NCBI GenBank assembly: GCA_018806915.1
Contig: JAGKQI010000094.1
Coordinates: forward strand, 1,116,001-1,180,000
DNA from: Phytophthora colocasiae
Taxonomy: Eukaryota; Oomycota; Peronosporomycetes; Peronosporales; Peronosporaceae
DNA length: 64,000 bases
Reading direction: 5' to 3'
The notes under the pieces are model-generated. The model searched no databases and was not told where the DNA came from. It saw only the letters and a program-made list of their open reading frames with translations. Numbering within the stretch: position 1 is the first letter of the stretch; each line of letters begins with the position of its first letter. The translations under genes were made by a program, and so were the position numbers. Below are positions 24,078 through 64,000 of the stretch, piece by piece.

Positions 24078-24114
24078 CTTCCGCTGTCGAACCTTAGTTC
24101 ACTAAAGTTAACTT

Positions 24115-24485: not shown

Positions 24486-24545
24486 ACTGAAAACGATGCC
24501 AAGTGAGAGAAAATATATTTTCTCTCACTTGGCATCGCTTTCAGT
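24486..24545. repeat. 60-nt near-perfect palindrome
   Basis: Two 29-nt arms around a 2-nt centre (AT), with one mismatch (A versus G) eight bases from the outer ends. Arms begin ACTGAAAACGATGCCAAGTG. It lies downstream of the Helitron helicase on the minus strand. It could be a foldback element, a Helitron-family terminal hairpin or a strong transcription-ending hairpin. Confidence 0.9.
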
Positions 24546-27123: not shown

Positions 27124-28843
27124 TCTGCGTGTTTGGCGGCACGACTGTAATCGTCCATGTTTACCATGATCTGGCACGTGAATGCTGATCGTGTGGATTG
27201 CCACTCGGAGAATTTGTTTTGCCATTCGCCGCCATTTGTTGGGTCGGCTACAAGATCAGTCACCGCGCGAAATGGTTTAAACAGCACAAGAGCGCACTGG
27301 CTTCGTTTAACGACGGTCTCTTCGGGTGATTCATCATCTACCAATGGCATACGTGTACCTGACACGACTGGTACGACTTCGGACTTGTGCGCACCCACAC
27401 AGTGTGTACTGAAGGGCGGATGTCTGGGTAGGTAAGTCGCAGAATGACGACACCCGCCTCCGGTGAAAATGGGTCGCCACAAACTCGTATAAGCTAAGTT
27501 CACTGAGAGCAAGTGGCCGAAACAAATAGTCGTCCAAAAGGGAAGCCGCACGGAAAGTGACATCATTCAAATTATGTGGTTCCAGCTCAATGAGGTCGCA
27601 CGAGTGAACTGTTTGTTCCACGAGTTCATGCAACACGTTTCCAAGTGGCAGTGGCGCGCATGGTGTACTCATATACGCGCACGATCCACGGAGTACATAC
27701 AGGGCGGCAAGTGGTCCGGCGATCTCGCGTCTATTCGTAATTGCATACAGCATTGACGCCACACGTCGACGCCCAATTGCTGCGCGTTGTTGTGAACTTT
27801 CAGTTCACATTCTCCATTGGCGGCACTGTCGCGTGCTTCCCGAAGTTCACGCCGCTTGAATGCAGCGAGTGCGACGGCTGTAACCGAGTCAACCTGCTCT
27901 TGCATTTTGGTAACGTATTTCGTTGCATAATAAATGCGCAGTAGGGCGTTGCGCCCACCAATCATGACTTGAATGTCGTGGTTCGATCGGAACGCCAACA
28001 ACATCTCCTGGTTGAAGCCATTCACGTACTCGAATGGCGTTCGTCGCGCAAGAATAACTCCGTCGGTAGAGCAGCATGTATGCGTTTGACGAGCGCGTGG
28101 AAATCCATAGCGACATTGACCAGATTTCGATGCACGTCTTTTCTTAAAGCAACTACCAACGTGAGACCACCAATGAAGGTTGAGCAGAAATACAAGCATG
28201 GAGACCGCAAACGCCAAAGCACGAGGCATCCACCGTCTATCGTCAACTGAAGGGAAGCATGACAAGTGCACGGGAAACGGCATCATCTCGGAATGCGTCG
28301 TGCTCGTGTAGTTCTGATCGATGAGCTACTTGATTCAACTCATGCAGAAATTTGCCATACTCGTTGCCATCACGGTCTTCTTGAGTCTCAAATAAATGCA
28401 GGTCACGACGGTAAATCGCGGCTTTTGCTGCCGCGACGCTGCCTCGACATGGCATTTCTAATTTCACGGCTGCCGCCAACTCCAGACGAAGCGTATGGCC
28501 GCATCGGAGGGGGCCACGATGCTGGGCGGTGATCGAGTAAGAGACGCCGAATAACGTGCTGAGAGCTAAGGGCAGTGCTGCACCCGGGACACTGTACCAG
28601 TTTTTGTTCACCGCGTGCTTTATGACCACGATGGTGCTTGTTGGGATCTTCGTAAGCCTCGGACGGAATAAAGAGCTCCTGTAGATCGGCGTACGACTGT
28701 CCGCAGAAGACACACGACGAATCCGCTACACGGATAGGCATCGACGTCGACACAATACTATCCGTGAACGCCTCAATATCACGGTAATATTGGTTTCCAT
28801 AAGCATTCAACGCTCGATCAAACGCATCCGTATTGGGCGGTGC
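27124..28843 (-). repeat. Unit A1
   Basis: 1,720 bp. The only A unit joined to the helicase linker. It has a private one-base deletion near 27801 (CAGTTCACA versus CGGATTCACA elsewhere) that shifts the Rep frame. Confidence 0.93.
28339..28843 (-). repeat. Shared core (first copy) present in both unit types
   Basis: About 504 bp, from CTCATGCAG to GGCGGTGC on the + strand; 22 complete copies in the window. It encodes the Rep stretch from APPNTDAFDRALN, through a four-cysteine zinc-ribbon-like segment (CVFCGQ and CPGC), to KFLHEL. It is the only sequence common to A and B units and so the natural place for recombination between them. Confidence 0.93.
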
Positions 28844-30675
28844 TCTGCGTGTTTGGCGGCACGACTGTAATCGTCCATGTTTACCATGATCTGGCACGTG
28901 AATGCTGATCGTGTGGATTGCCACTCGGAGAATTTGTTTTGCCATTTGCCGCCATTTGTTGGGTCGGCTACAAGATCAGTCACCGCGCGAAATGGTTTAA
29001 ACAGCACAAGAGCGCACTGGCTTCGTTTAACGACGGTCTCTTCGGGTGATTCATCATCTACCAATGGCATACGTGTACCTGACACGACTGGTACGACTTC
29101 GGACTTGTGCGCACCCACACAGTGTGTACTGAAGGGCGGATGTCTGGGTAGGTAAGTCGCAGAATGACGGCACCCGCCTCCGGTGAAAATGGGTCGCCAC
29201 AAACTCGTATAAGCTAAGTTCACTGAGAGCAAGTGGCCGAAACAAATAGTCGTCCAAAAGGAAGCCGCACGGAAAGTGACATCATTCAAATTATGTGGTT
29301 CCAGCTCAATGAGGTCGCACGAGTGAACTGTTTGTTCCACGAGTTCATGCAACACGTTTCCAAGTGGCAGTGGCGCGCATGGTGTACTCATATACGCGCA
29401 CGATCCACGGAGTACATACAGGGCGGCAAGTGGTCCGGCGATCTCGCGTCTATTCGTAATTGCATACAGCATTGACGCCACACGTCGACGCCCAATTGCT
29501 GCGCGTTGTTGTGAACTTTCGGATTCACATTCTCCATTGGCGGCACTGTCGCGTGCTTCCCGAAGTTCACGCCGCTTGAATGCAGCGAGTGCGACGGCTG
29601 TAACCGAGTCAACCTGCTCTTGCATTTTGGTAACGTATTTCGTTGCATAATAAATGCGCAGTAGGGCGTTGCGCCCACCAATCATGACTTGAATGTCGTG
29701 GTTCGATCGGAACGCCAACAACATCTCCTGGTTGAAGCCATTCACGTACTCGAATGGCGTTCGTCGCGCAAGAATAACTCCGTCGGTAGAGCAGCATGTA
29801 TGTGTTTGACGAGCGCGTGGAAATCCATAGCGACATTGACCAGATTTCGATGCACGTCTTTTCTTAAAGCAACTACCAACGTGAGACCACCAATGAAGGT
29901 TGAGCAGAAATACAAGCATGGAGACCGCAAACGCCAAAGCACGAGGCATCCACCGTCTATCGTCAACTGAAGGGGGAAGCATGACAAGTGCACGGGAAAC
30001 GGCATCATCTCGGAATGCGTCGTGCTCGTGTAGTTCTGATCGATGAGCTACTTGATTCAACTCATGCAGAAATTTGCCATACTCGTTGCCATCACGGTCT
30101 TCTTGAGTCTCAAATAAATGCAGGTCACGACGGTAAATCGCGGCTTTTGCTGCCGCGACGCTGCCTCGACATGGCATTTCTAATTTCACGGCTGCCGCCA
30201 ACTCAGACGAAGCGTATGGCCGCATCGGAGGGGGCCACGATGCTGGGCGGTGATCGAGTAAGAGACGCCGAATAACGTGCTGAGAGCTAAGGGCAGTGCT
30301 GCACCCGGGACACTGTACCAGTTTTTGTTCACCGCGTGCTTTATGACCACGATGGTGCTTGTTGGGATCTTCGTAAGCCTCGGACGGAATAAAGAGCTCC
30401 TGTAGATCGGCGTACGACTGTCCGCAGAAGACACACGACGAATCCGCTACACGGATAGGCATCGACGTCGACACAATACTATCCGTGAACGCCTCAATAT
30501 CACGGTAATATTGGTTTCCATAAGCATTCAACGCTCGATCAAACGCATCCGTATTGGGCGGTGCTCTGCGTGTTTGGCGGCACGACTGTAATCGTCCATG
30601 TTTACCATGATCTGGCACGTGAATGCTGATCGTGTGGATTGCCACTCGGAGAATTTGTTTGCCATTCGCCGCCAT
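28807..30675 (-). pseudogene. Rep C-terminal half, longest open copy (A type)
   Basis: 622 codons crossing the A3/A2 join, core, the YYATKYVTKMQ tyrosine region, and on into the VVKRSQCALVLFKPF region of A2. A base loss near 29258 lets the frame bypass the usual break, at the cost of reading LDDYLFRP out of frame. It lacks the HUH motif. Confidence 0.65.
28844..30564 (-). repeat. Unit A2
   Basis: 1,721 bp. One G fewer in AAAAGG near 29258 and five Gs near 29970 let one frame stay open for 622 codons across this unit. Confidence 0.93.
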
Positions 30676-32284
30676 TTGTTGGGTCGGCTACAAGATCAGT
30701 CACCGCGCGAAATGGTTTAAACAGCACAAGAGCGCACTGGCTTCGTTTAACGACGGTCTCTTCGGGTGATTCATCATCTACCAATGGCATACGTGTACCT
30801 GACACGACTGGTACGACTTCGGACTTGTGCGCACCCACACAGTGTGTACTGAAGGGCGGATGTCTGGGTAGGTAAGTCGCAGAATGACGACACCCGCCTC
30901 CGGTGAAAATGGGTCGCCACAAACTCGTATAAGCTAAGTTCACTGAGAGCAAGTGGCCGAAACAAATAGTCGTCCAAAAGGGAAGCCGCACGGAAAGTGA
31001 CATCATTCAAATTATGTGGTTCCAGCTCAATGAGGTCGCACGAGTGAACTGTTTGTTCCACGAGTTCATGCAACACGTTTCCAAGTGGCAGTGGCGCGCA
31101 TGGTGTACTCATATACGCGCACGATCCACGGAGTACATACAGGGCGGCAAGTGGTCCGGCGATCTCGCGTCTATTCGTAATTGCATACAGCATTGACGCC
31201 ACACGTCGACGCCCAATTGCTGCGCGTTGTTGTGAACTTTCGGATTCACATTCTCCATTGGCGGCACTGTCGCGTGCTTCCCGAAGTTCACGCCGCTTGA
31301 ATGCAGCGAGTGCGACGGCTGTAACCGAGTCAACCTGCTCTTGCATTTTGGTAACGTATTTCGTTGCATAATAAATGCGCAGTAGGGCGTTGCGCCCACC
31401 AATCATGACTTGAATGTCGTGGTTCGATCGGAACGCCAACAACATCTCCTAGTTGAAGCCATTCACGTACTCGAATGGCGTTCGTCGCGCAAGAATAACT
31501 CCGTCGGTAGAGCAGCATGTATGCGTTTGACGAGCGCGTGGAAATCCATAGCGACATTGACCAGATTTCGATGCACGTCTTTTCTTAAAGCAACTACCAA
31601 CGTGAGACCACCAATGAAGGTTGAGCAGAAATACAAGCATGGAGACCGCAAACGCCAAAGCACGAGGCATCCACCGTCTATCGTCAACTGAAGGGGAAGC
31701 ATGACAAGTGCACGGGAAACGGCATCATCTCGGAATGCGTCGTGCTCGTGTAGTTCTGATCGATGAGCTACTTGATTCAACTCATGCAGAAATTTGCCAT
31801 ACTCGTTGCCATCACGGTCTTCTTGAGTCTCAAATAAATGCAGGTCACGACGGTAAATCGCGGCTTTTGCTGCCGCGACGCTGCCTCGACATGGCATTTC
31901 TAATTTCACGGCTGCCGCCAACTCCAGACGAAGCGTATGGCCGCATCGGAGGGGCCACGATGCTGGGCGGTGATCGAGTAAGAGACGCCGAATAACGTGC
32001 TGAGAGCTAAGGGCAGTGCTGCACCCGGGACACTGTACCAGTTTTTGTTCACCGCGTGCTTTATGACCACGATGGTGCTTGTTGGGATCTTCGTAAGCCT
32101 CGGACGGAATAAAGAGCTCCTGTAGATCGGCGTACGACTGTCCGCAGAAGACACACGACGAATCCGCTACACGGATAGGCATCGACGTCGACACAATACT
32201 ATCCGTGAACGCCTCAATATCACGGTAATATTGGTTTCCATAAGCATTCAACGCTCGATCAAACGCATCCGTATTGGGCGGTGC
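30565..32284 (-). repeat. Unit A3
   Basis: 1,720 bp. It carries a nonsense change (minus-strand TAG at 31449-31451, replacing Gln in FNQEML) shared only with A4, and a T-run one base shorter near 30660. Confidence 0.93.
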
Positions 32285-34008
32285 TCTGCGTGTTTGGCGG
32301 CACGACTGTAATCGTCCATGTTTACCATGATCTGGCACGTGAATGCTGATCGTGTGGATTGCCACTCGGAGAATTTGTTTTGCCATTCGCCGCCATTTGT
32401 TGGGTCGGCTACAAGATCAGTCACCGCGCGAAATGGTTTAAACAGCACAAGAGCGCACTGGCTTCGTTTAACGACGGTCTCTTCGGGTGATTCATCATCT
32501 ACCAATGGCATACGTGTACCTGACACGACTGGTACGACTTCGGACTTGTGCGCACCCACACAGTGTGTACTGAAGGGCGGATGTCTGGGTAGGTAAGTCG
32601 CAGAATGACGACACCCGCCTCCGGTGAAAATGGGTCGCCACAAACTCGTATAAGCTAAGTTCACTGAGAGCAAGTGGCCGAAACAAATAGTCGTCCAAAA
32701 GGGAAGCCGCACGGAAAGTGACATCATTCAAATTATGTGGTTCCAGCTCAATGAGGTCGCACTTTTGAGTGAACTGTTTGTTCCACGAGTTCATGCAACA
32801 CGTTTCCAAGTGGCAGTGGCGCGCATGGTGTACTCATATACGCGCACGATCCACGGAGTACATACAGGGCGGCAAGTGGTCCGGCGATCTCGCGTCTATT
32901 CGTAATTGCATACAGCATTGACGCCACACGTCGACGCCCAATTGCTGCGCGTTGTTGTGAACTTTCGGATTCACATTCTCCATTGGCGGCACTGTCGCGT
33001 GCTTCCCGAAGTTCACGCCGCTTGAATGCAGCGAGTGCGACGGCTGTAACCGAGTCAACCTGCTCTTGCATTTTGGTAACGTATTTCGTTGCATAATAAA
33101 TGCGCAGTAGGGCGTTGCGCCCACCAATCATGACTTGAATGTCGTGGTTCGATCGGAACGCCAACAACATCTCCTAGTTGAAGCCATTCACGTACTCGAA
33201 TGGCGTTCGTCGCGCAAGAATAACTCCGTCGGTAGAGCAGCATGTATGCGTTTGACGAGCGCGTGGAAATCCATAGCGACATTGACCAGATTTCGATGCA
33301 CGTCTTTTCTTAAAGCAACTACCAACGTGAGACCACCAATGAAGGTTGAGCAGAAATACAAGCATGGAGACCGCAAACGCCAAAGCACGAGGCATCCACC
33401 GTCTATCGTCAACTGAAGGGGAAGCATGACAAGTGCACGGGAAACGGCATCATCTCGGAATGCGTCGTGCTCGTGTAGTTCTGATCGATGAGCTACTTGA
33501 TTCAACTCATGCAGAAATTTGCCATACTCGTTGCCATCACGGTCTTCTTGAGTCTCAAATAAATGCAGGTCACGACGGTAAATCGCGGCTTTTGCTGCCG
33601 CGACGCTGCCTCGACATGGCATTTCTAATTTCACGGCTGCCGCCAACTCCAGACGAAGCGTATGGCCGCATCGGAGGGCCACGATGCTGGGCGGTGATCG
33701 AGTAAGAGACGCCGAAAAACGTGCTGAGAGCTCAGGGCAGTGCTGCACCCGGGACACTGTACTAGTATTTGATCACCGCGTGCTTTATGACCACGATGGT
33801 GCTTGTTGGGATCTTCGTAAGCCTCGGACGGAATAAAGAGCTCCTGTAGATCGGCGTACGACTGTCCGCAGAAGACACACGACGAATCCGCTACACGGAT
33901 AGGCATCGACGTCGACACAATACTATCCGTGAACGCCTCAATATCACGGTAATATTGGTTTCCATAAGCATTCAACGCTCGATCAAACGCATCCGTATTG
34001 GGCGGTGC
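32285..34008 (-). repeat. Unit A4
   Basis: 1,724 bp. Shares the A3 nonsense change (33174-33176). A 4-bp TTTT insertion lies near 32763. The core has a cluster of private changes at 33715-33775. Confidence 0.93.
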
Positions 34009-35728
34009 TCTGCGTGTTTGGCGGCACGACTGTAATCGTCCATGTTTACCATGATCTGGCACGTGAATGCTGATCGTGTGGATTGCCACTCGGAGAATTT
34101 GTTTTGCCATTCGCCGCCATTTGTTGGGTCGGCTACAAGATCAGTCACCGCGCGAAATGGTTTAAACAGCACAAGAGCGCACTGGCTTCGTTTAACGACG
34201 GTCTCTTCGGGTGATTCATCATCTACCAATGGCATACGTGTACCTGACACGACTGGTACGACTTCGGACTTGTGCGCACCCACACAGTGTGTACTGAAGG
34301 GCGGATGTCTGGGTAGGTAAGTCGCAGAATGACGGCACCCGCCTCCGGTGAAAATGGGTCGCCACAAACTCGTATAAGCTAAGTTCACTGAGAGCAAGTG
34401 GCCGAAACAAATAGTCGTCCAAAAGGGAAGCCGCACGGAAAGTGACATCATTCAAATTATGTGGTTCCAGCTCAATGAGGTCGCACGAGTGAACTGTTTG
34501 TTCCACGAGTTCATGCAACACGTTTCCAAGTGGCAGTGGCGCGCATGGTGTACTCATATACGCGCACGATCCACGGAGTACATACAGGGCGGCAAGTGGT
34601 CCGGCGATCTCGCGTCTATTCGTAATTGCATACAGCATTGACGCCACACGTCGACGCCCAATTGCTGCGCGTTGTTGTGAACTTTCGGATTCACATTCTC
34701 CATTGGCGGCACTGTCGCGTGCTTCCCGAAGTTCACGCCGCTTGAATGCAGCGAGTGCGACGGCTGTAACCGAGTCAACCTGCTCTTGCATTTTGGTAAC
34801 GTATTTCGTTGCATAATAAATGCGCAGTAGGGCGTTGCGCCCACCAATCATGACTTGAATGTCGTGGTTCGATCGGAACGCCAACAACATCTCCTGGTTG
34901 AAGCCATTCACGTACTCGAATGGCGTTCGTCGCGCAAGAATAACTCCGTCGGTAGAGCAGCATGTATGCGTTTGACGAGCGCGTGGAAATCCATAGCGAC
35001 ATTGACCAGATTTCGATGCACGTCTTTTCTTAAAGCAACTACCAACGTGAGACCACCAATGAAGGTTGAGCAGAAATACAAGCATGGAGACCGCAAACGC
35101 CAAAGCACGAGGCATCCACCGTCTATCGTCAACTGAAGGGAAGCATGACAAGTGCACGGAAACGGCATCATCTCGGAATGCGTCGTGCTCGTGTAGTTCT
35201 GATCGATGAGCTACTTGATTCAACTCATGCAGAAATTTGCCATACTCGTTGCCATCACGGTCTTCTTGAGTCTCAAATAAATGCAGGTCACGACGGTAAA
35301 TCGCGGCTTTTGCTGCCGCGACGCTGCCTCGACATGGCATTTCTAATTTCACGGCTGCCGCCAACTCCAGACGAAGCGTATGGCCGCATCGGAGGGGGCC
35401 ACGATGCTGGGCGGTGATCGAGTAAGAGACGCCGAATAACGTGCTGAGAGCTAAGGGCAGTGCTGCACCCGGGACACTGGACTAGGTTTTGTTCACCGCG
35501 TGCTTTATGACCACGATGGTGCTTGTTGGGATCTTCGTAAGCCTCGGACGGAATAAAGAGCTCCTGTAGATCGGCGTACGACTGTCCGCAGAAGACACAC
35601 GACGAATCCGCTACACGGATAGGCATCGACGTCGACACAATACTATCCGTGAACGCCTCAATATCACGGTAATATTGGTTTCCATAAGCATTCAACGCTC
35701 GATCAAACGCATCCGTATTGGGCGGTGC
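34009..35728 (-). repeat. Unit A5
   Basis: 1,720 bp. One G fewer near 35158 (GCACGGAAACGG); private changes in the core near 35478-35487. Confidence 0.93.
34219..35364 (-). pseudogene. Rep C-terminal half in A5
   Basis: 381 codons from the core's end through the tyrosine region and LDDYLFRP, running off frame at the break shared by all A units near the GGCGGG stretch. Confidence 0.6.
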
Positions 35729-36892
35729 TCTGCGTGTTTGGCGGCACGACTGTAATCGTCCATGTTTACCATGATCTGGCACGTGAATGCTGATCGTGTG
35801 GATTGCCACTCGGAGAATTTGTTTTGCCATTCGCCGCCATTTTGTTGGGTCGGCTACAAGATCAGTCACCGCGCGAAATGGTTTAAACAGCACAAGAGCG
35901 CACTGGCTTCGTTTAACGACGGTCTCTTCGGGTGATTCATCATCTACCAATGGCATACGTGTACCTGACACGACTGGTACGACTTCGGACTTGTGCGCAC
36001 CCACACAGTGTGTACTGAAGGGCGGATGTCTGGGTAGGTAAGTCGCAGAATGACGGCACCCGCCTCCGGTGAAAATGGGTCGCCACAAACTCGTATAAGC
36101 TAAGTTCACTGAGAGCAAGTGGCCGAAACAAATAGTCGTCCAAAAGGAAGCCGCACGGAAAGTGACATCATTCAAATTATGTGGTTCCAGCTCAATGAGG
36201 TCGCACGAGTGAACTGTTTGTTCCACGAGTTCATGCAACACGTTTCCAAGTGGCAGTGGCGCGCATGGTGTACTCATATACGCGCACGATCCACGGAGTA
36301 CATACAGGGCGGCAAGTGGTCCGGCGATCTCGCGTCTATTCGTAATTGCATACAGCATTGACGCCACACGTCGACGCCCAATTGCTGCGCGTTGTTGTGA
36401 ACTTTCGGATTCACATTCTCCATTGGCGGCACTGTCGCGTGCTTCCCGAAGTTCACACCGCTTGAATGCAGCGAGTGCGACGGCTGTAACCGAGTCAACC
36501 TGCTCTTGCATTTTGGTAACGTATTTCGTTGCATAATAAATGCGCAGTAGGGCGTTGCGCCCACCAATCATGACTTGAATGTCGTGGTTCGATCGGAACG
36601 CCAACAACATCTCCTGGTTGAAGCCATTCACGTACTCGAATGGCGTTCGTCGCGCAAGAATAACTCCGTCGGTAGAGCAGCATGTATGCGTTTGACGAGC
36701 GCGTGGAAATCCATAGCGACATTGACCAGATTTCGATGCACGTCTTTTCTTAAAGCAACTACCAACGTGAGACCACCAATGAAGGTTGAGCAGAAATACA
36801 AGCATGGAGACCGCAAACGCCAAAGCACGAGGCATCCACCGTCTATCGTCAACTGAAGGGAAGCATGACAAGTGCACGGGAAACGGCATCAT
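35288..36892 (-). pseudogene. Rep C-terminal half, open copy in A6/A5
   Basis: 534 codons from the A segment of A6 (tyrosine region, FKPF region) through the join into the core of A5. No HUH motif; carries the Arg-to-Cys change. Confidence 0.6.
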
Positions 36893-37448
36893 CTCGGAAT
36901 GCGTCGTGCTCGTGTAGTTCTGATCGATGAGCTACTTGATTCAACTCATGCAGAAATTTGCCATACTCGTTGCCATCACGGTCTTCTTGAGTCTCAAATA
37001 AATGCAGGTCACGACGGTAAATCGCGGCTTTTGCTGCCGCGACGCTGCCTCGACATGGCATTTCTAATTTCACGGCTGCCGCCAACTCCAGACGAAGCGT
37101 ATGGCCGCATCGGAGGGGCCACGATGCTGGGCGGTGATCGAGTAAGAGACGCCGAATAACGTGCTGAGAGCTAAGGGCAGTGCTGCACCCGGGACACTGT
37201 ACCAGTTTTTGTTCACCGCGTGCTTTATGACCACGATGGTGCTTGTTGGGATCTTCGTAAGCCTCGGACGGAATAAAGAGCTCCTGTAGATCGGCGTACG
37301 ACTGTCCGCAGAAGACACACGACGAATCCGCTACACGGATAGGCATCGACGTCGACACAATACTATCCGTGAACGCCTCAATATCACGGTAATATTGGTT
37401 TCCATAAGCATTCAACGCTCGATCAAACGCATCCGTATTGGGCGGTGC
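35729..37448 (-). repeat. Unit A6
   Basis: 1,720 bp. Extra T near 35841. First of three consecutive units with the Arg-to-Cys change (TTCACACCGC near 36452-36461). Confidence 0.93.
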
Positions 37449-39172
37449 TCTGCGTGTTTGGCGGCACGACTGTAATCGTCCATGTTTACCATGATCTGGC
37501 ACGTGAATGCTGATCGTGTGGATTGCCACTCGGAGAATTTGTTTTGCCATTCGCCGCCATTTGTTGGGTCGGCTACAAGATCAGTCACCGCGCCGAAATG
37601 GTTTAAACAGCACAAGAGCGCACTGGCTTCGTTTAACGACGGTCTCTTCGGGTGATTCATCATCTACCAATGGCATACGTGTACCTGACACGACTGGTAC
37701 GACTTCGGACTTGTGCGCACCCACACAGTGTGTACTGAAGGGCGGATGTCTGGGTAGGTAAGTCGCAGAATGACGGCACCCGCCTCCGGTGAAAATGGGT
37801 CGCCACAAACTCGTATAAGCTAAGTTCACTGAGAGCAAGTGGCCGAAACAAATAGTCGTCCAAAAGGAAGCCGCACGGAAAGTGACATCATTCAAATTAT
37901 GTGGTTCCAGCTCAATGAGGTCCCTTTTGAGTGAACTGTTTGTTCCACGAGTTCATGCAACACGTTTCCAAGTGGCAGTGGCGCGCATGGTGTACTCATA
38001 TACGCGCACGATCCACGGAGTACATACAGGGCGGCAAGTGGTCCGGCGATCTCGCGTCTATTCGTAATTGCATACAGCATTGACGCCACACGTCGACGCC
38101 CAATTGCTGCGCGTTGTTGTGAACTTTCGGATTCACATTCTCCATTGGCGGCACTGTCGCGTGCTTCCCGAAGTTCACACCGCTTGAATGCAGCGAGTGC
38201 GACGGCTGTAACCGAGTCAACCTGCTCTTGCATTTTGGTAACGTATTTCGTTGCATAATAAATGCGCAGTAGGGCGTTGCGCCCACCAATCATGACTTGA
38301 ATGTCGTGGTTCGATCGGAACGCCAACAACATCTCCTGGTTGAAGCCATTCACGTACTCGAATGGCGTTCGTCGCGCAAGAATAACTCCGTCGGTAGAGC
38401 AGCATGTATGCGTTTGACGAGCGCGTGGAAATCCATAGCGACATTGACCAGATTTCGATGCACGTCTTTTCTTAAAGCAACTACCAACGTGAGACCACCA
38501 ATGAAGGTTGAGCAGAAATACAAGCATGGAGACCGCAAACGCCAAAGCACGAGGCATCCACCGTCTATCGTCAACTGAAGGGGGAAGCATGACAAGTGCA
38601 CGGGAAACGGCATCATCTCGGAATGCGTCGTGCTCGTGTAGTTCTGATCGATGAGCTACTTGATTCAACTCATGCAGAAATTTGCCATACTCGTTGCCAT
38701 CACGGTCTTCTTGAGTCTCAAATAAATGCAGGTCACGACGGTAAATCGCGGCTTTTGCTGCCGCGACGCTGCCTCGACATGGCATTTCTAATTTCACGGC
38801 TGCCGCCAACTCAGACGAAGCGTATGGCCGCATCGGAGGGGGCCACGATGCTGGGCGGTGATCGAGTAAGAGACGCCGAATAACGTGCTGAGAGCTAAGG
38901 GCAGTGCTGCACCCGGGACACTGTACCAGTTTTTGTTCACCGCGTGCTTTATGACCACGATGGTGCTTGTTGGGATCTTCGTAAGCCTCGGACGGAATAA
39001 AGAGCTCCTGTAGATCGGCGTACGACTGTCCGCAGAAGACACACGACGAATCCGCTACACGGATAGGCATCGACGTCGACACAATACTATCCGTGAACGC
39101 CTCAATATCACGGTAATATTGGTTTCCATAAGCATTCAACGCTCGATCAAACGCATCCGTATTGGGCGGTGC
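37449..39172 (-). repeat. Unit A7
   Basis: 1,724 bp. Shares the Arg-to-Cys change; extra C near 37594; altered CCCTTTTGAGTG near 37922, similar to the insertion in A4. Confidence 0.93.
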
Positions 39173-39274
39173 TCTGCGTGTTTGGCGGCACGACTGTAAT
39201 CGTCCATGTTTACCATGATCTGGCACGTGAATGCTGATCGTGTGGATTGCCACTCGGAGAATTTGTTTTGCCAT
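37892..39274 (-). pseudogene. Rep C-terminal half, open copy in A8/A7
   Basis: 460 codons from the end of A8 through the core and tyrosine region of A7, ended by the altered CCCTTTTGAG stretch. Confidence 0.6.
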
Positions 39275-45819: not shown

Positions 45820-45897
45820 ATCGGCCAGCCATACTAAAAAGTGAGCGTGCAATGTTCCACCTCCTTGCATCTCAACCATGCCAAAGTACGCCTTCAC
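45079..45897 (-). pseudogene. Chimeric HUH-core-N-terminal fragment
   Basis: 272 codons: HUH motif near the start, full core, then the arginine-rich stretch to a stop (GLGWEL). It shows that the B/core join keeps one frame open for about 75 codons past the join. Confidence 0.55.
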
Positions 45898-52232: not shown

Positions 52233-53836
52233 ATCGGCCAGCCATACTAAAAGTGAGCGTGCAATGTTCCACCTCCTTGCATCTCAACCATGCCAAAGTA
52301 CGCCTTCACGTCTCCAAAGACCATCAAATGGTTTGCCTTTCATCTCATTTAATGGAACGCCAAGAACATGCTCAACAAACGCATCGATATTGCGCATAAA
52401 GAGTCGGGCCGACGCAACGTCATTGCGCATGCAAGCACTCTGCATATTCGAGCGACCGGGTGGATCAGCCAACGCAGCGTCAAACAGCGGGTCGACCGAC
52501 GTGATACCACAGTATTGTGCCATCACGAACGATCCTGCAACGTCCGGGGTTAGCGTCACAAAGAGCTGGTTGCCCGAATCGCGCTTGATACGCGAATGCT
52601 CCACGTCGACATTGCGCTCGTTCGCCATCACTTCCCCACATCGCGCTGCCACTAATGTCGACAGTCTTCAAAAACGCGGCTGCACTGGAGTCTTGGGTAC
52701 GCGTCGAGGTTTTGCGTCCTGTCGGCGTAGCTCTTTGTCAGCCAACGCATCTCGCAAAGCGTCTTCACTAATATTACTGTACGGCTCAAACATCATCGTA
52801 TTTCGCTGGCACTTTAAAGCCACTTGTGTACATCCTGTGAAGCGATAGATAGTCGAAGCTTATGCGAGCATGAAAGCTCATCTTCAGCGAATCGTCTCGA
52901 GCTGAGATTCGCGTAATATCGAATACAGGTATTGAAAGCAACAGGCACGTGTCGTTGTTCACCCGGGTGCCCTCGTCCGTACGGGAACAAATGTGGGAAC
53001 ATACGCGCGAAAAGTGATGCATCACGTTGTGCAAATTGGGTCGAATGTCTGACGAGAAATTGAGATTGTGATGTACTTTGGGACGCATGTTCATAACTCC
53101 CAGCCTAGCCCCACCGCACCAAGGCTAAAGCTAGTTTTGTAAACGCTCAGGCAATTTTTTGCAAGCATCGGAAACTGGGTGTAACCTTGGTATTGAATCG
53201 ACAGAATCCCAAATGTGATCAACTTCACAACCATGAGCACGCTGTCGCGTATTCTCCATTTGCTGTCTTGAAGCGGTTCTATTTGCATCGTCCTCGTTCT
53301 CGATTGCGACGCAATCTTTCTTCTCTGTCTAACTCATGCAGAAATTTGCCATACTCGTTGCCATCACGGTCTTCTTGAGTCTCAAATAAATGCAGGTCAC
53401 GACGGTAAATCGCGGCTTTTGCTGCCGCGACGCTGCCTCGACATGGCATTTCTAATTTCACGGCTGCCGCCAACTCAGACGAAGCGTATGGCCGCATCGG
53501 AGGGGGCCACGATGCTGAGCGGTGATCGAGTAAGAGACGCCGAATAACGTGCTGAGAGCTAAGGGCAGTGCTGCACCCGGGACACTGTACTAGTTTTTGT
53601 TCACCGCGTGCTTTATGACCACGATGGTGCTTGTTGGGATCGTCGTAAGCCTCGGACGGAATAAAGAGCTCCTGTAGATCGGCGTACGACTGTCCGCAGA
53701 AGACACACGACGAATCCGCTACACGGATAGGCATCGACGTCGACACAATACTATCCGTGAACGCCTCAATATCACGGTAATATTGGTTTCCATAAGCATT
53801 CAACGCTCGATCAAACGCATCCGTATTGGGCGGTGC
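52233..53836 (-). repeat. Unit B7
   Basis: 1,604 bp. Private CACTCTGCAT near 52438, an insertion near 52861 and one near 53125-53140. Its core has the Glu-to-Asp change (GGATCGTCGTAAG near 53640) shared only with B8. Confidence 0.93.
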
Positions 53837-54598
53837 ATCGGCCAGCCATACTAAAAAGTGAGCGTGCAATGTTCCACCTCCTTGCATCTCAACCATGCCA
53901 AAGTACGCCTTCACGTCTCCAAAAAGACCATCAAATGGTTTGCCTTTCATCTCATTTAATGGAACGCCAAGAACATGCTCAACAAACGCATCGATATTGC
54001 GCATAAAGAGTCGGGCCGACGCAACGTCATTGCGCATGCAAGCACTATGCATATTCGAGCGACCGGGTGGATCAGCCAACGCAGCGTCAAACAGCGGGTC
54101 GACCGACGTGATACCACAGTATTGTGCCATCACGAACGATCCTGCAACGTCCGGGTTAGCGTCACAAAGAGCTGGTTGCCCGAATCGCGCTTGATACGCG
54201 AATGCTCCACGTCGACATTGCGCTCGTTCGCCATCACTTCCCCACATCGCGCTGCCACTAATGTCGACAGTCTTCAAAAACGCGGCTGCACTGGAGTCTT
54301 GGGTACGCGTCGAGGTTTTGCGTCCCTGTCGGCGTAGCTCTTTGTCAGCCAACGCATCTCGCAAAGCGTCTTCACTAATATTACTGTACGGCTCAAACAT
54401 CATCGTATTTCGCTGGCACTTTAAAGCCACTTGTGTGTACATCCTGTGAAGCGATAGATAGTCGAAGCTTGCGAGCATGAAAAGCTCATCTTCAGCGAAT
54501 CGTCTCGAGCTGAGATTCGCGTAATATCGAATACAGGTATTGAAAGCAACAGGCACGTGTCGTTGTTCACCCGGGTGCCCTCGTCCGTACGGGAACAA
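53279..54598 (-). pseudogene. Rep N-terminal half with chimeric tail (B8 into B7)
   Basis: 439 codons from the FPYGRG region through the HUH motif and the core. It then crosses the B/core join in frame into the arginine-rich N-terminal segment of the next unit (KFLHEL continuing as DREERLRRNRERG). The tail order does not exist in a normal Rep. Confidence 0.65.
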
Positions 54599-55438
54599 AT
54601 GTGGAACATACGCGCGAAAAGTGATGCATCACGTTGTGCAAATTGGGTCGAATGTCTGACGAGAAATTGAGATTGTGATGTACTTTGGGACGCATGTTCA
54701 TAACTCCCAGCCTAGCCCCACCGCACCAAGGCTAAGCTGTAAACGCTCAAGGCAATTCTTTTTGCAAGCATCGGAAACTGGGTGTAACCTTGGTATTGAA
54801 TCGACAGAATCCCAAATGTGATCAACTTCACAACCTTGAGCACGCTGTCGCGTATTCTCCATTTGCTGTCTTGAAGCGGTTCTATTTGCACGTCCTCGTT
54901 CTCGATTGCGACGCAATCTTTCTTCTCTGTCTAACTCATGCAGAAATTTGCCATACTCGTTGCCATCACGGTCTTCTTGAGTCTCAAATAAATGCAGGTC
55001 ACGACGGTAAATCGCGGCTTTTGCTGCCGCGACGCTGCCTCGACATGGCATTTCTAATTTCACGGCTGCCGCCAACTCAGACGAAGCGTATGGCCGCATC
55101 GGAGGGGGCCACGATGCTGAGCGGTGATCGAGTAAGAGACGCCGAATAACGTGCTGAGAGCTAAGGGCAGTGCTGCACCCGGGACACTGTACTAGTTTTT
55201 GTTCACCGCGTGCTTTATGACCACGATGGTGCTTGTTGGGATCGTCGTAAGCCTCGGACGGAATAAAGAGCTCCTGTAGATCGGCGTACGACTGTCCGCA
55301 GAAGACACACGACGAATCCGCTACACGGATAGGCATCGACGTCGACACAATACTATCCGTGAACGCCTCAATATCACGGTAATATTGGTTTCCATAAGCA
55401 TTCAACGCTCGATCAAACGCATCCGTATTGGGCGGTGC
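53837..55438 (-). repeat. Unit B8
   Basis: 1,602 bp. Shares GGATCGTCGTAAG and GTACTAGTTT core variants with B7; AATGTGGAACAT near 54600, also in B9. Its core is followed by an A unit. Confidence 0.93.
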
Positions 55439-57154
55439 TCTGCGTGTTTGGCGGCACGACTGTAATCGTCCATGTTTACCATGATCTGGCACGTGAATGC
55501 TGATCGTGTGGATTGCCACTCGGAGAATTTGTTTTGCTATTCGCCGCCATTTGTTGGGTCGGCTACAAGATCAGTCACCGCGCGAAATGGTTTAAACAGC
55601 ACAAGAGCGCACTGGCTTCGTTTAACGACGGTCTCTTCGGGTGATTCATCATCTACCAATGGCATACGTGTACCTGACACGACTGGTAACGACTTCGACT
55701 TGTGCGCACCCACACAGTGTGTACTGAAGGGCGGATGTCTGGGTAGGTAAGTCGCAGAATGACGGCACCCGCCTCCGGTGAAAATGGGTCGCCACAAACT
55801 CGTATAAGCTAAGTTCACTGAGAGCAAGTGGCCGAAACAAATAGTCGTCCAAAAGGGAAGCCGCACGGAAAGTGACATCATTCAAATTATGTGGTTCCAG
55901 CTCAATGAGGTCGCACGAGTGAACTGTTTGTTCCACGAGTTCATGCAACACGTTTCCAAGTGGCAGTGGCGCGCATGGTGTACTCATATACGCGCACGAT
56001 CCACGGAGTACATACAGGGCGGCAAGTGGTCCGGCGATCTCGCGTCTATTCGTAATTGCATACAGCATTGACGCCACACGTCGACGCCCAATTGCTGCGC
56101 GTTGTTGTGAACTTTCGGATTCACATTCTCCATTGGCGGCACTGTCGCGTGCTTCCCGAAGTTCACGCCGCTTGAATGCAGCGAGTGCGACGGCTGTAAC
56201 CGAGTCAACCTGCTCTTGCATTTTGGTAACGTATTTCGTTGCATAATAAATGCGCAGTAGGGCGTTGCGCCCACCAATCATGACTTGAATGTCGTGGTTC
56301 GATCGGAACGCCAACAACATCTCCTGGTTGAAGCCATTCACGTACTCGAATGGCGTTCGTCGCGCAAGAATAACTCCGTCGGTAGAGCAGCATGTATGCG
56401 TTTGACGAGCGCGTGGAAATCCATAGCGACATTGACCAGATTTCGATGCACGTCTTTTCTTAAAGCAACTACCAACGTGAGACCACCAATGAAGGTTGAG
56501 CAGAAATACAAGCATGGAGACCGCAAACGCCAAAGCACGAGGCATCCACCGTCTATCGTCAACTGAAGGGGGAAGCATGACAAGTGCACGGAAACGGCAT
56601 CATCTCGGAATGCGTCGTGCTCGTGTAGTTCTGATCGATGAGCTACTTGATTCAACTCATGCAGAAATTTGCCATACTCGTTGCCATCACGGTCTTCTTG
56701 AGTCTCAAATAAATGCAGGTCACGACGGTAAATCGCGGCTTTGCTGCCGCGACGCTGCCTCGACATGGCATTTCTAATTTCACGGCTGCCGCCAACTCAG
56801 ACGAAGCGTATGGCCGCATCGGAGGGCCACGATGCTGGGCGGTGATCGAGTAAGAGACGCCGAATAACGTGCTGAGAGCTAAGGGCAGTGCTGCACCCGG
56901 GACACTGTACCAGTTTTGTTCACCGCGTGCTTTATGACCACGATGGTGCTTGTTGGGATCTTCGTAAGCCTCGGACGGAATAAAGAGCTCCTGTAGATCG
57001 GCGTACGACTGTCCGCAGAAGACACACGACGAATCCGCTACACGGATAGGCATCGACGTCGACACAATACTATCCGTGAACGCCTCAATATCACGGTAAT
57101 ATTGGTTTCCATAAGCATTCAACGCTCGATCAAACGCATCCGTATTGGGCGGTG
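55439..57154 (-). repeat. Unit A10
   Basis: 1,716 bp. Compensating one-base shifts near 55687-55697; shares TGCTATTCG with A11 only. Confidence 0.93.
55649..56578 (-). pseudogene. Rep C-terminal fragment in A10
   Basis: 309 codons with the tyrosine region and LDDYLFRP; no HUH motif. Confidence 0.55.
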
Positions 57155-58871
57155 CTCTGCGTGTTTGGCGGCACGACTGTAATCGTCCATGTTTACCATG
57201 ATCTGGCACGTGAATGCTGATCGTGGATTGCCACTCGGAGAATTTGTTTTGCTATTCGCCGCCATTTGTTGGGTCGGCTACAAGATCAGTCACCGCGCGA
57301 AATGGTTTAAACAGCACAAGAGCGCACTGGCTTCGTTTAACGACGGTCTCTTCGGGTGATTCATCATCTACCAATGGCATACGTGTACCTGACACGACTG
57401 GTACGACTTCGGACTTGTGCGCACCCACACAGTGTGTACTGAAGGGCGGATGTCTGGGTAGGTAAGTCGCAGAATGACGGCACCCGCCTCCGGTGAAAAT
57501 GGGTCGCCACAAACTCGTATAAGCTAAGTTCACTGAGAGCAAGTGGCCGAAGCAAATAGTCGTCCAAAAGGGAAGCCGCACGGAAAGTGACATCATTCAA
57601 ATTATGTGGTTCCAGCTCAATGAGGTCGCACGAGTGAACTGTTTGTTCCACGAGTTCATGCAACACGTTTCCAAGTGGCAGTGGCGCGCATGGTGTACTC
57701 ATATACGCGCACGATCCACGGAGTACATACAGGGCGGCAAGTGGTCCGGCGATCTCGCGTCTATTCGTAATTGCATACAGCATTGACGCCACACGTCGAC
57801 GCCCAATTGCTGCGCGTTGTTGTGAACTTTCGGATTCACATTCTCCATTGGCGGCACTGTCGCGTGCTTCCCGAAGTTCACGCCGCTTGAATGCAGCGAG
57901 TGCGACGGCTGTAACCGAGTCAACCTGCTCTTGCATTTTGGTAACGTATTTCGTTGCATAATAAATGCGCAGTAGGGCGTTGCGCCCACCAATCATGACT
58001 TGAATGTCGTGGTTCGATCGGAACGCCAACAACATCTCCTGGTTGAAGCCATTCACGTACTCGAATGGCGTTCGTCGCGCAAGAATAACTCCGTCGGTAG
58101 AGCAGCATGTATGCGTTTGACGAGCGCGTGGAAATCCATAGCGACATTGACCAGATTTCGATGCGTCTTTTCTTAAAGCAACTACCAACGTGAGACCACC
58201 AATGAAGGTTGAGCAGAAATACAAGCATGGAGACCGCAAACGCCAAAGCACGAGGCATCCACCGTCTATCGTCAACTGAAGGGGAAGTATGACAAGTGCA
58301 CGGGAAACGGCATCATCTCGGAATGCGTCGTGCTCGTGTAGTTCTGATCGATGAGCTACTTGATTCAACTCATGCAGAAATTTGCCATACTCGTTGCCAT
58401 CACGGTCTTCTTGAGTCTCAAATAAATGCAGGTCACGACGGTAAATCGCGGCTTTTGCTGCCGCGACGCTGCCTCGACATGGCATTTCTAATTTCACGGC
58501 TGCCGCCAACTCAGACGAAGCGTATGGCCGCATCGGAGGGGCCACGATGCTGGGCGGTGATCGAGTAAGAGACGCCGAATAACGTGCTGAGAGCTAAGGG
58601 CAGTGCTGCACCCGGGACACTGTACCAGTTTTTGTTCACCGCGTGCTTTATGACCACGATGGTGCTTGTTGGGATCTTCGTAAGCCTCGGACGGAATAAA
58701 GAGCTCCTGTAGATCGGCGTACGACTGTCCGCAGAAGACACACGACGAATCCGCTACACGGATAGGCATCGACGTCGACACAATACTATCCGTGAACGCC
58801 TCAATATCACGGTAATATTGGTTTCCATAAGCATTCAACGCTCGATCAAACGCATCCGTATTGGGCGGTGC
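57155..58871 (-). repeat. Unit A11
   Basis: 1,717 bp. Two-base losses near 57223 and 58164 and a private substitution near 57551. Followed by B9 in native order. Confidence 0.93.
57364..58545 (-). pseudogene. Rep C-terminal half in A11, beside an HUH copy in B9
   Basis: 393 codons holding the tyrosine region and LDDYLLRPLALSELSLYEF. Immediately upstream, in another frame, 58494-58967 holds the HUH motif and core start. Only a G-run length difference near 58538 separates the two. It is one of two places where both catalytic halves are in native order. Confidence 0.65.
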
Positions 58872-60475
58872 ATCGGCCAGCCATACTAAAAAGTGAGCGT
58901 GCAATGTTCCACCTCCTTGCATCTCAACCATGCCAAAGTACGCCTTCACGTCTCCAAAGACCATCAAATGGTTTGCCTTTCATCTCATTTAATGGAACGC
59001 CAAGAACATGCTCAACAAACGCATCGATATTGCGCATAAAGAGTCGGGCCGACGCAACGTCATTGCGCATGCAAGCACTATGCATATTCGAGCGACCGGG
59101 TGGATCAGCCAACGCAGCGTCAAACAGCGGGTCGACCGACGTGATACCACAGTATTGTGCCATCACGAACGATCCTGCAACGTCCGGGGTTAGCGTCACA
59201 AAAGAGCTGGTTGCCCGAATCGCGCTTGATACGCGAATGCTCCACGTCGACATTGCGCTCGTTCGCCATCACTTCCCCACATCGCGCTGCCACTAATGTC
59301 GACAGTCTTCAAAAACGCGGCTGCACTGGAGTCTTGGGTACGCGTCGAGGTTTTGCGTCCCTGTCGGCGTAGCTCTTTGTCAGCCAACGCATCTCGCAAA
59401 GCGTCTTCACTAATATTACTGTACGGCTCAAACATCATCGTATTTCGCTGGCACTTTAAAGCCACTTGTGTGTACATCCTGTGAAGCGATAGATAGTCGA
59501 AGCTTGCGAGCATGAAAAGCTCATCTTCAGCGAATCGTCTCGAGCTGAGATTCGCGTAATATCGAATACAGGTATTGAAAGCAACAGGCACGTGTCGTTG
59601 TTCACCCGGGTGCCCTCGTCCGTACGGGAACAAATGTGGAACATACGCGCGAAAAGTGATGCATCACGTTGTGCAAATTGGGTCGAATGTCTGACGAGAA
59701 ATTGAGATTGTGATGTACTTTGGGACGCATGTTCATAACTCCCAGCCTAGCCCCACCGCACCAAGGCTAAGCTGTAAACGCTCAAGGCAATTCTTTTTGC
59801 AAGCATCAGGAAACTGGGTGTAACCTTGGTATTGAATCGACAGAATCCCAAATGTGATCAACTTCACAACCTTGAGCACGCTGTCGCGTATTCTCCATTT
59901 GCTGTCTTGAAGCGGTTCTATTTGCATCGTCCTCGTTCTCGATTGCGACGCAATCTTTCTTCTCTGTCTAACTCATGCAGAAATTTGCCATACTCGTTGC
60001 CATCACGGTCTTCTTGAGTCTCAAATAAATGCAGGTCACGACGGTAAATCGCGGCTTTTGCTGCCGCGACGCTGCCTCGACATGGCATTTCTAATTTCAC
60101 GGCTGCCGCCAACTCAGACGAAGCGTATGGCCGCATCGGAGAGGGCCACGATGCTGGGCGGTGATCGAGTAAGAGACGCCGAATAACGTGCTGAGAGCTA
60201 AGGGCAGTGCTGCACCCGGGACACTGTACCAGTTTTTGTTCACCGCGTGCTTTATGACCACGATGGTGCTTGTTGGGATCTTCGTAAGCCTCGGACGGAA
60301 TAAAGAGCTCCTGTAGATCGGCGTACGACTGTCCGCAGAAGACACACGACGAATCCGCTACACGGATAGGCATCGACGTCGACACAATACTATCCGTGAA
60401 CGCCTCAATATCACGGTAATATTGGTTTCCATAAGCATTCAACGCTCGATCAAACGCATCCGTATTGGGCGGTGC
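58872..60475 (-). repeat. Unit B9
   Basis: 1,604 bp. AATGTGGAAC near 59634 as in B8; extra base near 59807; GGAGAGGGCC in the core near 60139. Confidence 0.93.
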
Positions 60476-62084
60476 ATCGGCCAGCCATACTAAAAAGTGA
60501 GCGTGCAATGTTCCACCTCCTTGCATCTCAACCATGCCAAAGTACGCCTTCACGTCTCCAAAAAAGACCATCAAATGGTTTGCCTTTCATCTCATTTAAT
60601 GGAACGCCAAGAACATGCTCAACAAACGCATCGATATTGCGCATAAAGAGTCGGGCCGACGCAACGTCATTGCGCATGCAAGCACTATGCATATTCGAGC
60701 GACCGGGTGGATCAGCCAACGCAGCGTCAAACAGCGGGTCGACCGACGTGATACCACAGTATTGTGCCATCACGAACGATCCTGCAACGTCCGGGGTTAG
60801 CGTCACAAAAAGAGCTGGTTGCCCGAATCGCGCTTGATACGCGAATGCTCCACGTCGACATTGCGCTCGTTCGCCATCACTTCCCCACATCGCGCTGCCA
60901 CTAATGTCGACAGTCTTCAAAAACGCGGCTGCACTGGAGTCTTGGGTACGCGTCGAGGTTTTGCGTCCCTGTCGGCGTAGCTCTTTGTCAGCCAACGCAT
61001 CTCGCAAAGCGTCTTCACTAATATTACTGTACGGCTCAAACATCATCGTATTTCGCTGGCACTTTAAAGCCACTTGTGTGTACATCCTGTGAAGCGATAG
61101 ATAGTCGAAGCTTGCGAGCATGAAAAGCTCATCTTCAGCGAATCGTCTCGAGCTGAGATTCGCGTAATATCGAATACAGGTATTGAAAGCAACAGGCACG
61201 TGTCGTTGTTCACCCGGGTGCCCTCGTCCGTACGGGAACAAATGTGGGAACATACGCGCGAAAAGTGATGCATCACGTTGTGCAAATTGGGTCGAATGTC
61301 TGACGAGAAATTGAGATTGTGATGTACTTTGGAACGCATGTTCATAACTCCCAGCCTAGCCCCACCGCACCAAGGCTAAGCTGTAAACGCTCAAAGGCAA
61401 TTCTTTTTGCAAGCATCGGAAACTGGGTGTAACCTTGGTATTGAATCGACAGAATCCCAAATGTGATCAACTTCACAATCTTGAGCACGCTGTCGCGTAT
61501 TCTCCATTTGCTGTCTTGAAGCGGTTCTATTTGCACGTCCTCGTTCTCGATTGCGACGCAATCTTTCTTCTCTGTCTAACTCATGCAGAAATTTGCCATA
61601 CTTCGTTGCCATCACGGTCTTCTTGAGTCTCAAATAAATGCAGGTCACGACGGTAAATCGCGGCTTTTGCTGCCGCGACGCTGCCTCGACATGGCATTTC
61701 TAATTTCACGGCTGCCGCCAACTCAGACGAAGCGTATGGCCGCATCGGAGGGGGCCACGATGCTGGGCGGTGATCGAGTAAGAGACGCCGAATAACGTGC
61801 TGAGAGCTAAGGGCAGTGCTGCACCCGGGACACTGTACCAGTTTTTGTTCACCGCGTGCTTTATGGCCACGATGGTGCTTGTTGGGATCTTCGTAAGCCT
61901 CGGACGGAATAAAGAGCTCCTGTAGATCGGCGTACGACTGTCCGCAGAAGACACACGACGAATCCGCTACACGGATAGGCATCGACGTCGACACAATACT
62001 ATCCGTGAACGCCTCAATATCACGGTAATATTGGTTTCCATAAGCATTCAACGCTCGATCAAACGCATCCGTATTGGGCGGTGC
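60476..62084 (-). repeat. Unit B10
   Basis: 1,609 bp. Six-A run near 60559, TTGGAACGCATG near 61330, extra T in ACTTCGTTGCC near 61603 and ATGGCCACG near 61863. Confidence 0.93.
60528..61253 (-). pseudogene. Rep N-terminal fragment in B10
   Basis: 241 codons from MFPHLFPYGRG to just before the HUH motif, ended by the six-A run near 60559. Confidence 0.55.
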
Positions 62085-62954
62085 ATCGGCCAGCCATACT
62101 AAAAAGTGAGCGTGCAATGTTCCACCTCCTTGCATCTCAACCATGCCAAAGTACGCCTTCACGTCTCCAAAAAGACCATCAAATGGTTTGCCTTTCATCT
62201 CATTTAATGGAACGCCAAGAACATGCTCAACAAACGCATCGATATTGCGCATAAAGAGTCGGGCCGACGCAACGTCATTGCGCATGCAAGCACTATGCAT
62301 ATTCGAGCGACCGGGTGGATCAGCCAACGCAGCGTCAAACAGCGGGTCGACCGACGTGATACCACAGTATTGTGCCATCACGAACGATCCTGCAACGTCC
62401 GGGGTTAGCGTCACAAAAAGAGCTGGTTGCCCGAATCGCGCTTGATACGCGAATGCTCCACGTCGACATTGCGCTCGTTCGCCATCACTTCCCCACATCG
62501 CGCTGCCACTAATGTCGACAGTCTTCAAAAACGCGGCTGCACTGGAGTCTTGGGTACGCGTCGAGGTTTTGCGTCCCTGTCGGCGTAGCTCTTTGTCAGC
62601 CAACGCATCTCGCAAAGCGTCTTCACTAATATTACTGTACGGCTCAAACATCATCGTATTTCGCTGGCACTTTAAAGCCACTTGTGTGTACATCCTGTGA
62701 AGCGATAGATAGTCGAAGCTTGCGAGCATGAAAAGCTCATCTTCAGCGAATCGTCTCGAGCTGAGATTCGCGTAATATCGAATACAGGTATTGAAAGCAA
62801 CAGGCACGTGTCGTTGTTCACCCGGGTGCCCTCGTCCGTACGGGAACAAATGTGGGAACATACGCGCGAAAAGTGATGCATCACGTTGTGCAAATTGGGT
62901 CGAATGTCTGACGAGAAATTGAGATTGTGATGTACTTTGGGAACGCATGTTCAT
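61581..62954 (-). pseudogene. Helitron Rep N-terminal half, longest open copy (B type)
   Basis: 457 codons. In order: MFPHLFPYGRGHPGE (about 31-45), the conserved helical region (EDELFMLASFDYL), FVTLTPDVAG (the FxTxTP-type strand), GGGTLHAHFLVWL (HUH metal-binding motif, about 284-296), the zinc-ribbon-like cysteines of the core, then KAAIYRRDLHLF. A single T insertion near 61603 ends the frame. This is the best preserved HUH half of Rep in the window, but there is no tyrosine half behind it; the next sequence is another B unit. HUH Reps nick DNA through tyrosines, so this product could bind but not cleave. Confidence 0.7.
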
Positions 62955-63691
62955 AACTCCCAGCCTAGCCCCACCGCACCAAGGCTAAGCTGTAAACGCT
63001 CAAGGCAATTCTTTTGCAAGCATCGGAAACTGGGTGTAACCTTGGTATTGAATCGACAGAATCCCAAATGTGATCAACTTCACAACCTTGAGCACGCTGT
63101 CGCGTATTCTCCATTTGCTGTCTTGAAGCGGTTCTATTTGCATCGTCCTCGTTCTCGATTGCGACGCAATCTTTCTTCTCTGTCTAACTCATGCAGAAAT
63201 TTGCCATACTCGTTGCCATCACGGTCTTCTTGAGTCTCAAATAAATGCAGGTCACGACGGTAAATCGCGGCTTTTGCTGCCGCGACGCTGCCTCGACATG
63301 GCATTTCTAATTTCACGGCTGCCGCCAACTCCAGACGAAGCGTATGGCCGCATCGGAGGGGCCACGATGCTGGGCGGTGATCGAGTAAGAGACGCCGAAT
63401 AACGTGCTGAGAGCTAAGGGCAGTGCTGCACCCGGGACACTGTACCAGTTTTTGTTCACCGCGTGCTTTATGACCACGATGGTGCTTGTTGGGATCTTCG
63501 TAAGCCTCGGACGGAATAAAGAGCTCCTGTAGATCAGCGTACGACTGTCCGCAGAAGACACACGACGAATCCGCTACACGGATAGGCATCGACGTCGACA
63601 CAATACTATCCGTGAACGCCTCAATATCACGGTAATATTGGTTTCCATAAGCATTCAACGCTCGATCAAACGCATCCGTATTGGGCGGTGC
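62085..63691 (-). repeat. Unit B11
   Basis: 1,607 bp. An extra base near 62941 (GGGAACGCATG) opens the Rep N-terminal frame; the 457-codon frame ending at 61581 begins here. Confidence 0.93.
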
Positions 63692-64000
63692 ATCGGCCAG
63701 CCATACTAAAAGTGAGCGTGCAATGTTCCACCTCCTTGCATCTCAACCATGCCAAAGTACGCCTTCACGTCTCCAAAAAGACCATCAAATGGTTTGCCTT
63801 TCATCTCATTTAATGGAACGCCAAGAATATGCTCAACAAACGCATCGATATTGCGCATAAAGAGTCGGGCCGACGCAACGTCATTGCGCATGCAAGCACT
63901 ATGCATATTCGAGCGACCGGGTGGATCAGCCAACGCAGCGTCAAACAGCGGGTCGACCGACGTGATACCACAGTATTGTGCCATCACGAACGATCCTGCA
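63692..64000 (-). repeat. Unit B12, cut by the window end
   Basis: First 309 bp of a B segment, holding the HUH motif. One private change AGAATATGC near 63824. Confidence 0.9.

Follow-up and report, generated by a model that had tools for sequence, protein, structure and literature searches.

The tandem array that starts at position 27124 of the window is composed of two kinds of units, A and B, which are two overlapping in-place tandem duplications inside the Rep region of one Helitron. We consider it probable, at roughly 0.8, that two such duplications in one decaying Helitron were followed by homologous unequal exchange mediated by the core that both kinds of units share. The window is the whole analysed stretch of 64,000 nucleotides (C30:1,116,001-1,180,000, in a genome of 92.5 Mb and 105 contigs), and all positions are given in its coordinates, also where the array was traced past the window in the same contig. 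The array is a readable case of a transposon interior becoming a satellite-like array: the founding joins, the native order, the ancestral stretch in segment B23 and the variants shared by neighbours are all still visible, which allows the history to be reconstructed in large part.

Anatomy and extent of the array

Inside the window, the units run head to tail from 27124 onward and amount to 22 complete units, 11 A and 11 B, in the order A9-B8-A2-B3, followed by part of B12. The original prediction was exact in the start and correct in unit count and order, and its common core of about 504 bp was measured at 502-508 bp. A units are 1,716-1,724 bp long, and B units, by their segment coordinates, 1,602-1,609 bp in the window and about 1,601-1,609 bp in the whole array. 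Position 64000 is the edge of the window and not the end of the array, which lies at 84,877 in the same contig. With copy number and block order as given by the assembly, the full array is A9-B8-A2-B16 and spans 57.8 kb, with 11 A-specific, 24 B-specific and 34 core segments. The two-period tandem array is real, and it is slightly richer than first described. As its units are about 99% identical along alignments of 5-14 kb, chance is excluded as the cause of the repeat. Tandem Repeats Finder, for which 500 is the longest period handled, reported no repeats.

The left flank, the blocks and the cores are all on the minus strand. The native left flank (24572-27123) is the 3' part of the Helitron with its PIF1-like helicase region, and is collinear with two related copies, on C52 and C84. 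The first A block (27124-42607, A1 to C9) has nine A-specific segments with a core after each, the first of the array's core copies being the 507 bp at 28337-28843. The first B block (42608-55438, B1 to C17) has eight B-specific segments, again with a core after each, and all eight are without an 843-bp stretch, the deletion breakpoint in B1 lying at 43489-43490. The last core of this block, C17 (54933-55438), has variants in common with the neighbouring B-block core C16 and is the sole transition from a B unit to an A unit. It is followed by the second A block (55439-58871; A10, C18, A11, C19) and by the second B block, which starts with B9, occupies 58872-64000 in the window and reaches 84,877 with 16 B-specific segments in all. 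The last of these, B24, has no core after it and passes into the native 5' flank of the Helitron, which extends from 84,877 to about 86,820 and has deletions relative to C52.

The host Helitron and its coding content

The HUH motif and the two-tyrosine motif YxxxY are the Rep motifs of Helitrons. In the C84 copy, an ORF of 1,493 amino acids combines Helitron_like_N (PF14214, 2.3e-19) with PIF1 (PF05970, 8.1e-18), so that Rep and helicase lie in one gene as in Helitrons, and it contains both Rep motifs as LHAHF and YATKY. A DUF6570 is encoded upstream of this ORF in another frame. At least 30 proteins related to the C84 transposase were found among the best 8,000 candidates scored, and 14 of the 30 relatives listed have Helitron_like_N, PIF1 and DUF6570 in one protein according to precomputed domains. 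Organism names were attached to eight of the 30: six oomycetes (among them Phytophthora palmivora, P. megakarya, P. fragariae and Nothophytophthora), one Chara braunii and one Pleurotus. By these names, the source genome very probably belongs to a Phytophthora-like oomycete. When 22 of the 30 were aligned, the H.H motif was present in 20 and gapped in two, and YxxxY was present in 18, gapped in three and altered to H at the second Y in one.

In the window copy, the Rep/helicase gene is broken. PF05970 is found in ORF 25355-26563, and three further window ORFs scanned from 26469-30687 gave no Pfam match. A HUH-like peptide occurs in all 24 B-specific segments and only there, the YxxxY peptide occurs in all 11 A-specific segments and only there, and neither unit has both catalytic motifs. 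At the two places where A-specific, core and B-specific segments still follow each other natively, the two motifs are in different frames. With the motifs split in this way, the array multiplies halves of Rep but no intact Rep, and selection for more Rep appears unlikely from the coding content. Most likely, the array is neutral or nearly neutral satellite-like DNA.

On the coding strand, the 5' end of the Helitron is ATTGGCTACC. The 3' ends of C52 and C84 differ from each other, and the copy on C30 lacks the last 60 bp or so of the 3' terminus as it is found in C84.

Native order and founding joins

The related copies come from searches in the organism's own genome, with the best 39 of 57 and the best 40 of 55 candidates scored, so that distant relatives may have further arrays in this genome. 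C52 shows the parts in their native succession of A-specific segment, core and B-specific segment, and C84 is collinear with C52 along this stretch. In C84, part of the B-specific region is present twice because of a separate, larger duplication. This order defines the A unit as a tandem duplication of A-specific segment plus core, and the B unit as one of core plus B-specific segment. The outermost segments, A1 at the left edge and B24 at the right edge, both pass into native element sequence, so that native Helitron is found on both sides of the array. Together with the variation common to neighbouring units, these edges point to an expansion in place. Two circles or two tandem duplications sharing the core had been envisaged as the origin; the duplications are supported, and circles are neither needed nor supported, given the native flanks at both edges and the variants common to neighbours.

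The native order also changes the reading of the block structure. As A-core-B is the native arrangement, a change from A to B is simply collinear sequence and requires no recombination. Among the 35 segments of the block sequence, only one switch needs unequal exchange, namely that from B8 to A10 via core C17, which re-uses the existing core-to-A join. The earlier view that A and B blocks switch through the core by recombination thus holds as far as exchange via the core is concerned, but not for every switch, since the A-to-B changes are native in C52 and C84.

That each founding join was made once and then multiplied had been predicted, and the breakpoints agree with it. All 10 core-to-A joins, the first at 28843-28844, share one breakpoint and are identical across the 90 bp compared. 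The B-to-core joins, the first at 43707-43709, also share a single breakpoint in all 23 copies (the 11 predicted within the window and 12 more beyond), with small differences some 24-45 bp from the join in six of the 23 rows. At the core-to-A join, GGTGC is followed by TCTGCG without exact overlap, so that the join is blunt or has a 2-bp imperfect overlap, and at the B-to-core join one extra or changed T lies beside a possible 3-bp overlap. Both joins therefore have no overlap or an imperfect one of 2-3 bp, and end joining or template switching commonly leaves such joins.

Variation among units

After masking of the columns next to indels, the mean pairwise substitution difference within the array is 0.32% for A-specific, 0.32% for core and 0.24% for B-specific segments, and the array differs from C52 and C84 by 2.5-3.5% (2.4-3.6% unmasked). 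The neighbour and four-gamete tests used shared sites of the unmasked alignments. At the substitution sites common to at least two units, which number just 5 (A), 6 (core) and 6 (B), the carriers of shared minor alleles are closer together than in shuffled arrays, an equally tight arrangement having arisen in 323 (A), 14 (core) and 50 (B) of 20,000 shuffles. All four allele combinations occur in 3 (A), 2 (core) and 6 (B) site pairs, which means that segments were exchanged among units or that the same change recurred.

The 843-bp stretch, which spans the DUF6570-coding region as located from the C84 copy, is present in C52 and C84 but missing from 23 of the 24 B-specific segments, with the same breakpoint by BLAST in all 23 and by base-by-base reading in 11 of them. 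Its sole keeper is B23 (81331-83271), near the right edge of the array. B23 keeps the stretch and yet ends in the B-to-core join, so the simplest reading is that the B duplication came before the deletion, although the relative ages could be reversed if B23 arose by a crossover with an undeleted allele. The deletion is present in both B1 and B24, the two outer ends, and its spread amounts to concerted evolution through unequal exchange or conversion. Re-acquisition of the B23 stretch from C52 or C84 was considered and rejected, since its divergence from them, 4.1% and 3.2%, resembles that of the rest of the array. The idea that A10-A11-B9 is a recent copy of A8-A9-B1 was likewise dropped: in alignment columns, A8 and A9 have a derived G at 252, A10 and A11 a derived T at 100, and B1-B4 a derived G at 481 that is not found in B9-B12. 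Without derived alleles in common, the exchange from B8 to A10 does not belong to the latest events.

Variants shared by neighbours and a deletion with one breakpoint support stepwise unequal exchange or gene conversion rather than one rolling-circle burst. This bears directly on the possibility that two extrachromosomal circles, one for each unit, were formed from the Helitron, amplified by rolling circle and re-entered the chromosome by homology via the core. Such circles would yield the same joins and core-mediated switches as observed, and head-to-tail Helitron junctions do occur in the genome, as the 5'|3' junction in C84 and the permuted C52 copy with its 617-bp terminal repeat demonstrate. 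The anatomy of the array does not require circles, however, and the neighbour-shared variants as well as the 843-bp stretch that survives in a unit by the edge would need more than a one-shot amplification, which is why we judge this origin improbable. Somewhat more doubtful again is a variant in which a Helitron without a 3' end produced circles of its own interior, or re-replicated locally, and a mosaic array grew by their re-entry via the core; if it were true, a transposon could turn into a satellite without the involvement of element ends.

Could the assembler have produced the array, by expanding a short real one or by shuffling its blocks? The 57.8 kb of 99% identical units exceed the length of many reads, 124 of the 144 indel events relative to the consensus are in homopolymer context, so that the indel variation may in part be sequencing or consensus error, and the left stretch 14500-17000, which is single copy, leaves no allelic contig for comparison. 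Neighbouring units nevertheless share variants in an orderly fashion, one unit alone has kept the 843 bp, and native Helitron is joined at both edges. An assembler may have miscounted the copies but would hardly have generated the two joins and the tandem arrangement, and we give an artefact very little credence.

Unit borders and Helitron ends

Canonical Helitron ends are 5'-TC and CTRR-3' with a hairpin. On the minus strand, the units begin with GCACC / AGACA and end with GCAGA / GAGTT, which is unlike TC and CTRR. The end stretches of C52, 5' and 3', have matches in C30 (longer than 150 bp) only outside the array and none within it, and Helitron ends at the unit borders are ruled out accordingly. 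Five folds, covering the A join and the B join on both strands and the deletion point on one strand, gave z-scores of -1.28 to 0.68 and no unusual hairpin at the joins, so neither join coincides with a Helitron end or an unusual fold. As had been expected, the array consists of internal Rep-region segments, with no Helitron ends detected in between among matches above 150 bp.

For Helitron arrays in plant centromeres, an origin by rolling-circle replication of the Helitron itself has been proposed, in which Rep restarts or misses the 3' stop. In favour of such an origin here, the host is a Helitron by the Helitron_like_N and PIF1 domains of the C84 copy, its 3' terminus is missing in the C30 copy, and passages of PMC12628747 describe loss of the 3' terminator as a source of arrays. 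This replication should, however, yield units with 5' ends, and among the C30 matches above 150 bp no Helitron end was found in the units, so that we regard this origin as highly improbable and, by the absence of ends, largely refuted.

Proposed mechanism

Two overlapping duplications followed by unequal exchange would account for the array in the following way. In one decaying Helitron copy with its Rep/helicase gene on the minus strand, two overlapping tandem duplications would have occurred in the Rep region, one comprising A-specific segment plus core, the other core plus B-specific segment, and each would have created one new join. Ordinary end-joining or template switching away from the Helitron ends may have made these joins. 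The 0.5-kb core, then present in all units, would have allowed sister or homologous chromosomes to misalign and recombine by homology, so that the A and B blocks could have grown stepwise by unequal crossing-over, gene conversion or break-induced replication, and one larger misaligned exchange in a core would have produced the mosaic A9-B8 | A2-B16. The 843-bp deletion presumably originated in a single B unit, from which it reached nearly all others.

In a simulation, arrays grew from AABB to 35 segments by random unequal exchange via the cores, with maximal offsets of 1, 2, 4, 8 and 16. Exactly one B-to-A switch resulted in 0 of 2,857 runs at offset 1, and in 43 of 2,994, 32 of 3,000, 23 of 3,000 and 18 of 2,972 runs at offsets 2, 4, 8 and 16. 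At these four offsets, most runs ended with no switch (2,858, 2,614, 2,390 and 2,355), and 50, 297, 542 and 555 ended with four or more. The single switch is thus reachable but atypical for a simple core-exchange model, and a history of mainly small steps within blocks and a single large one would fit better. An apparently complex two-period mosaic can arise from two overlapping duplications and one unequal exchange, and the array could serve as a length-polymorphic marker of array turnover in this lineage.

Comparison with known arrays

Single joins, native order, local sharing of variants and native flanks were all found, as they would be in a satellite-like array that stems from overlapping duplications and unequal exchange, and the array is a clear fresh example of known transposon-to-satellite transitions. 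That known Helitron arrays repeat whole elements end to end, as had been assumed, is too narrow: passages of PMC12628747 describe arrays of truncated Helitrons as well as satellites from transposon sub-segments. The internal satellite arrays of Helitrons and Helentrons presented there resemble ours in that a transposon interior became tandem and satellite-like, but the units here are 1.6-1.7 kb long, lie in the Rep coding region, and come in two overlapping kinds, which have a core in common and occur in alternating blocks. The truncated plant Helitron arrays (Xiong et al. 2016, as related in the same passages) also consist of many tandem incomplete copies, yet in many of them several 5' ends accompany just one 3' end, whereas no unit ends were found here and the array lies within one element. 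Circular Helitrons with joined ends in Fusarium and tandem Helitron copies in Metarhizium, as portrayed in parts of PMC5148889, have whole-element head-to-tail junctions that resemble those of C84 and C52; the C30 array shows no such junction. Among oomycetes, PpSat1 and PpSat2 of Phytophthora parasitica (PMC7290008) are satellite arrays for which homogenisation is discussed, but their monomers are near 330 bp and 142 bp, and the word Helitron has 0 occurrences in the main text of that source. No array of the present type in an oomycete is described in any of the paper titles listed.

Related loci and neighbourhood

The C52 copy (C52:469,109-481,244) is circularly permuted, with the 5' end joined to the 3' part and the 617-bp direct repeat at its outer ends, and is flanked, to within 3 bp, by inverted arms about 2.0 and 3.2 kb long. 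It looks like circular or concatemeric Helitron DNA that inserted at the centre of a palindrome. At C84:1,395,441-1,411,561, a head-to-tail Helitron junction is accompanied by a partial tandem duplication across the 5'|3' junction, with a unit of 6.76 kb and a second copy of 4.3 kb at 99.5%.

On the flanks of the array, the left stretch 14500-17000 has one copy in the assembly. The right flank stretch has a 100% match only in C30 and 48 weaker matches, which characterise it as repeat-rich and thus as giving little information on alleles. Left of the array lie genes for an SNF2/SHPRH-like helicase with a RING finger (7429-12486), a TMEM117/ion-channel-like protein (14139-17078) and a pectate lyase (PF03211, 17174-17908); the long open frames of these neighbours speak for reliable base calls outside the array. 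Beside the truncated 3' side of the Helitron, the region 19244-24098 holds an LTR-retrotransposon-type frame (19244-22906; reverse transcriptase, RNase H and integrase domains) and a second long frame that follows it (22800-24098). A near-perfect palindrome at 24485-24546 ends close to the missing 3' terminus of the Helitron and may mark a deletion or another small element.
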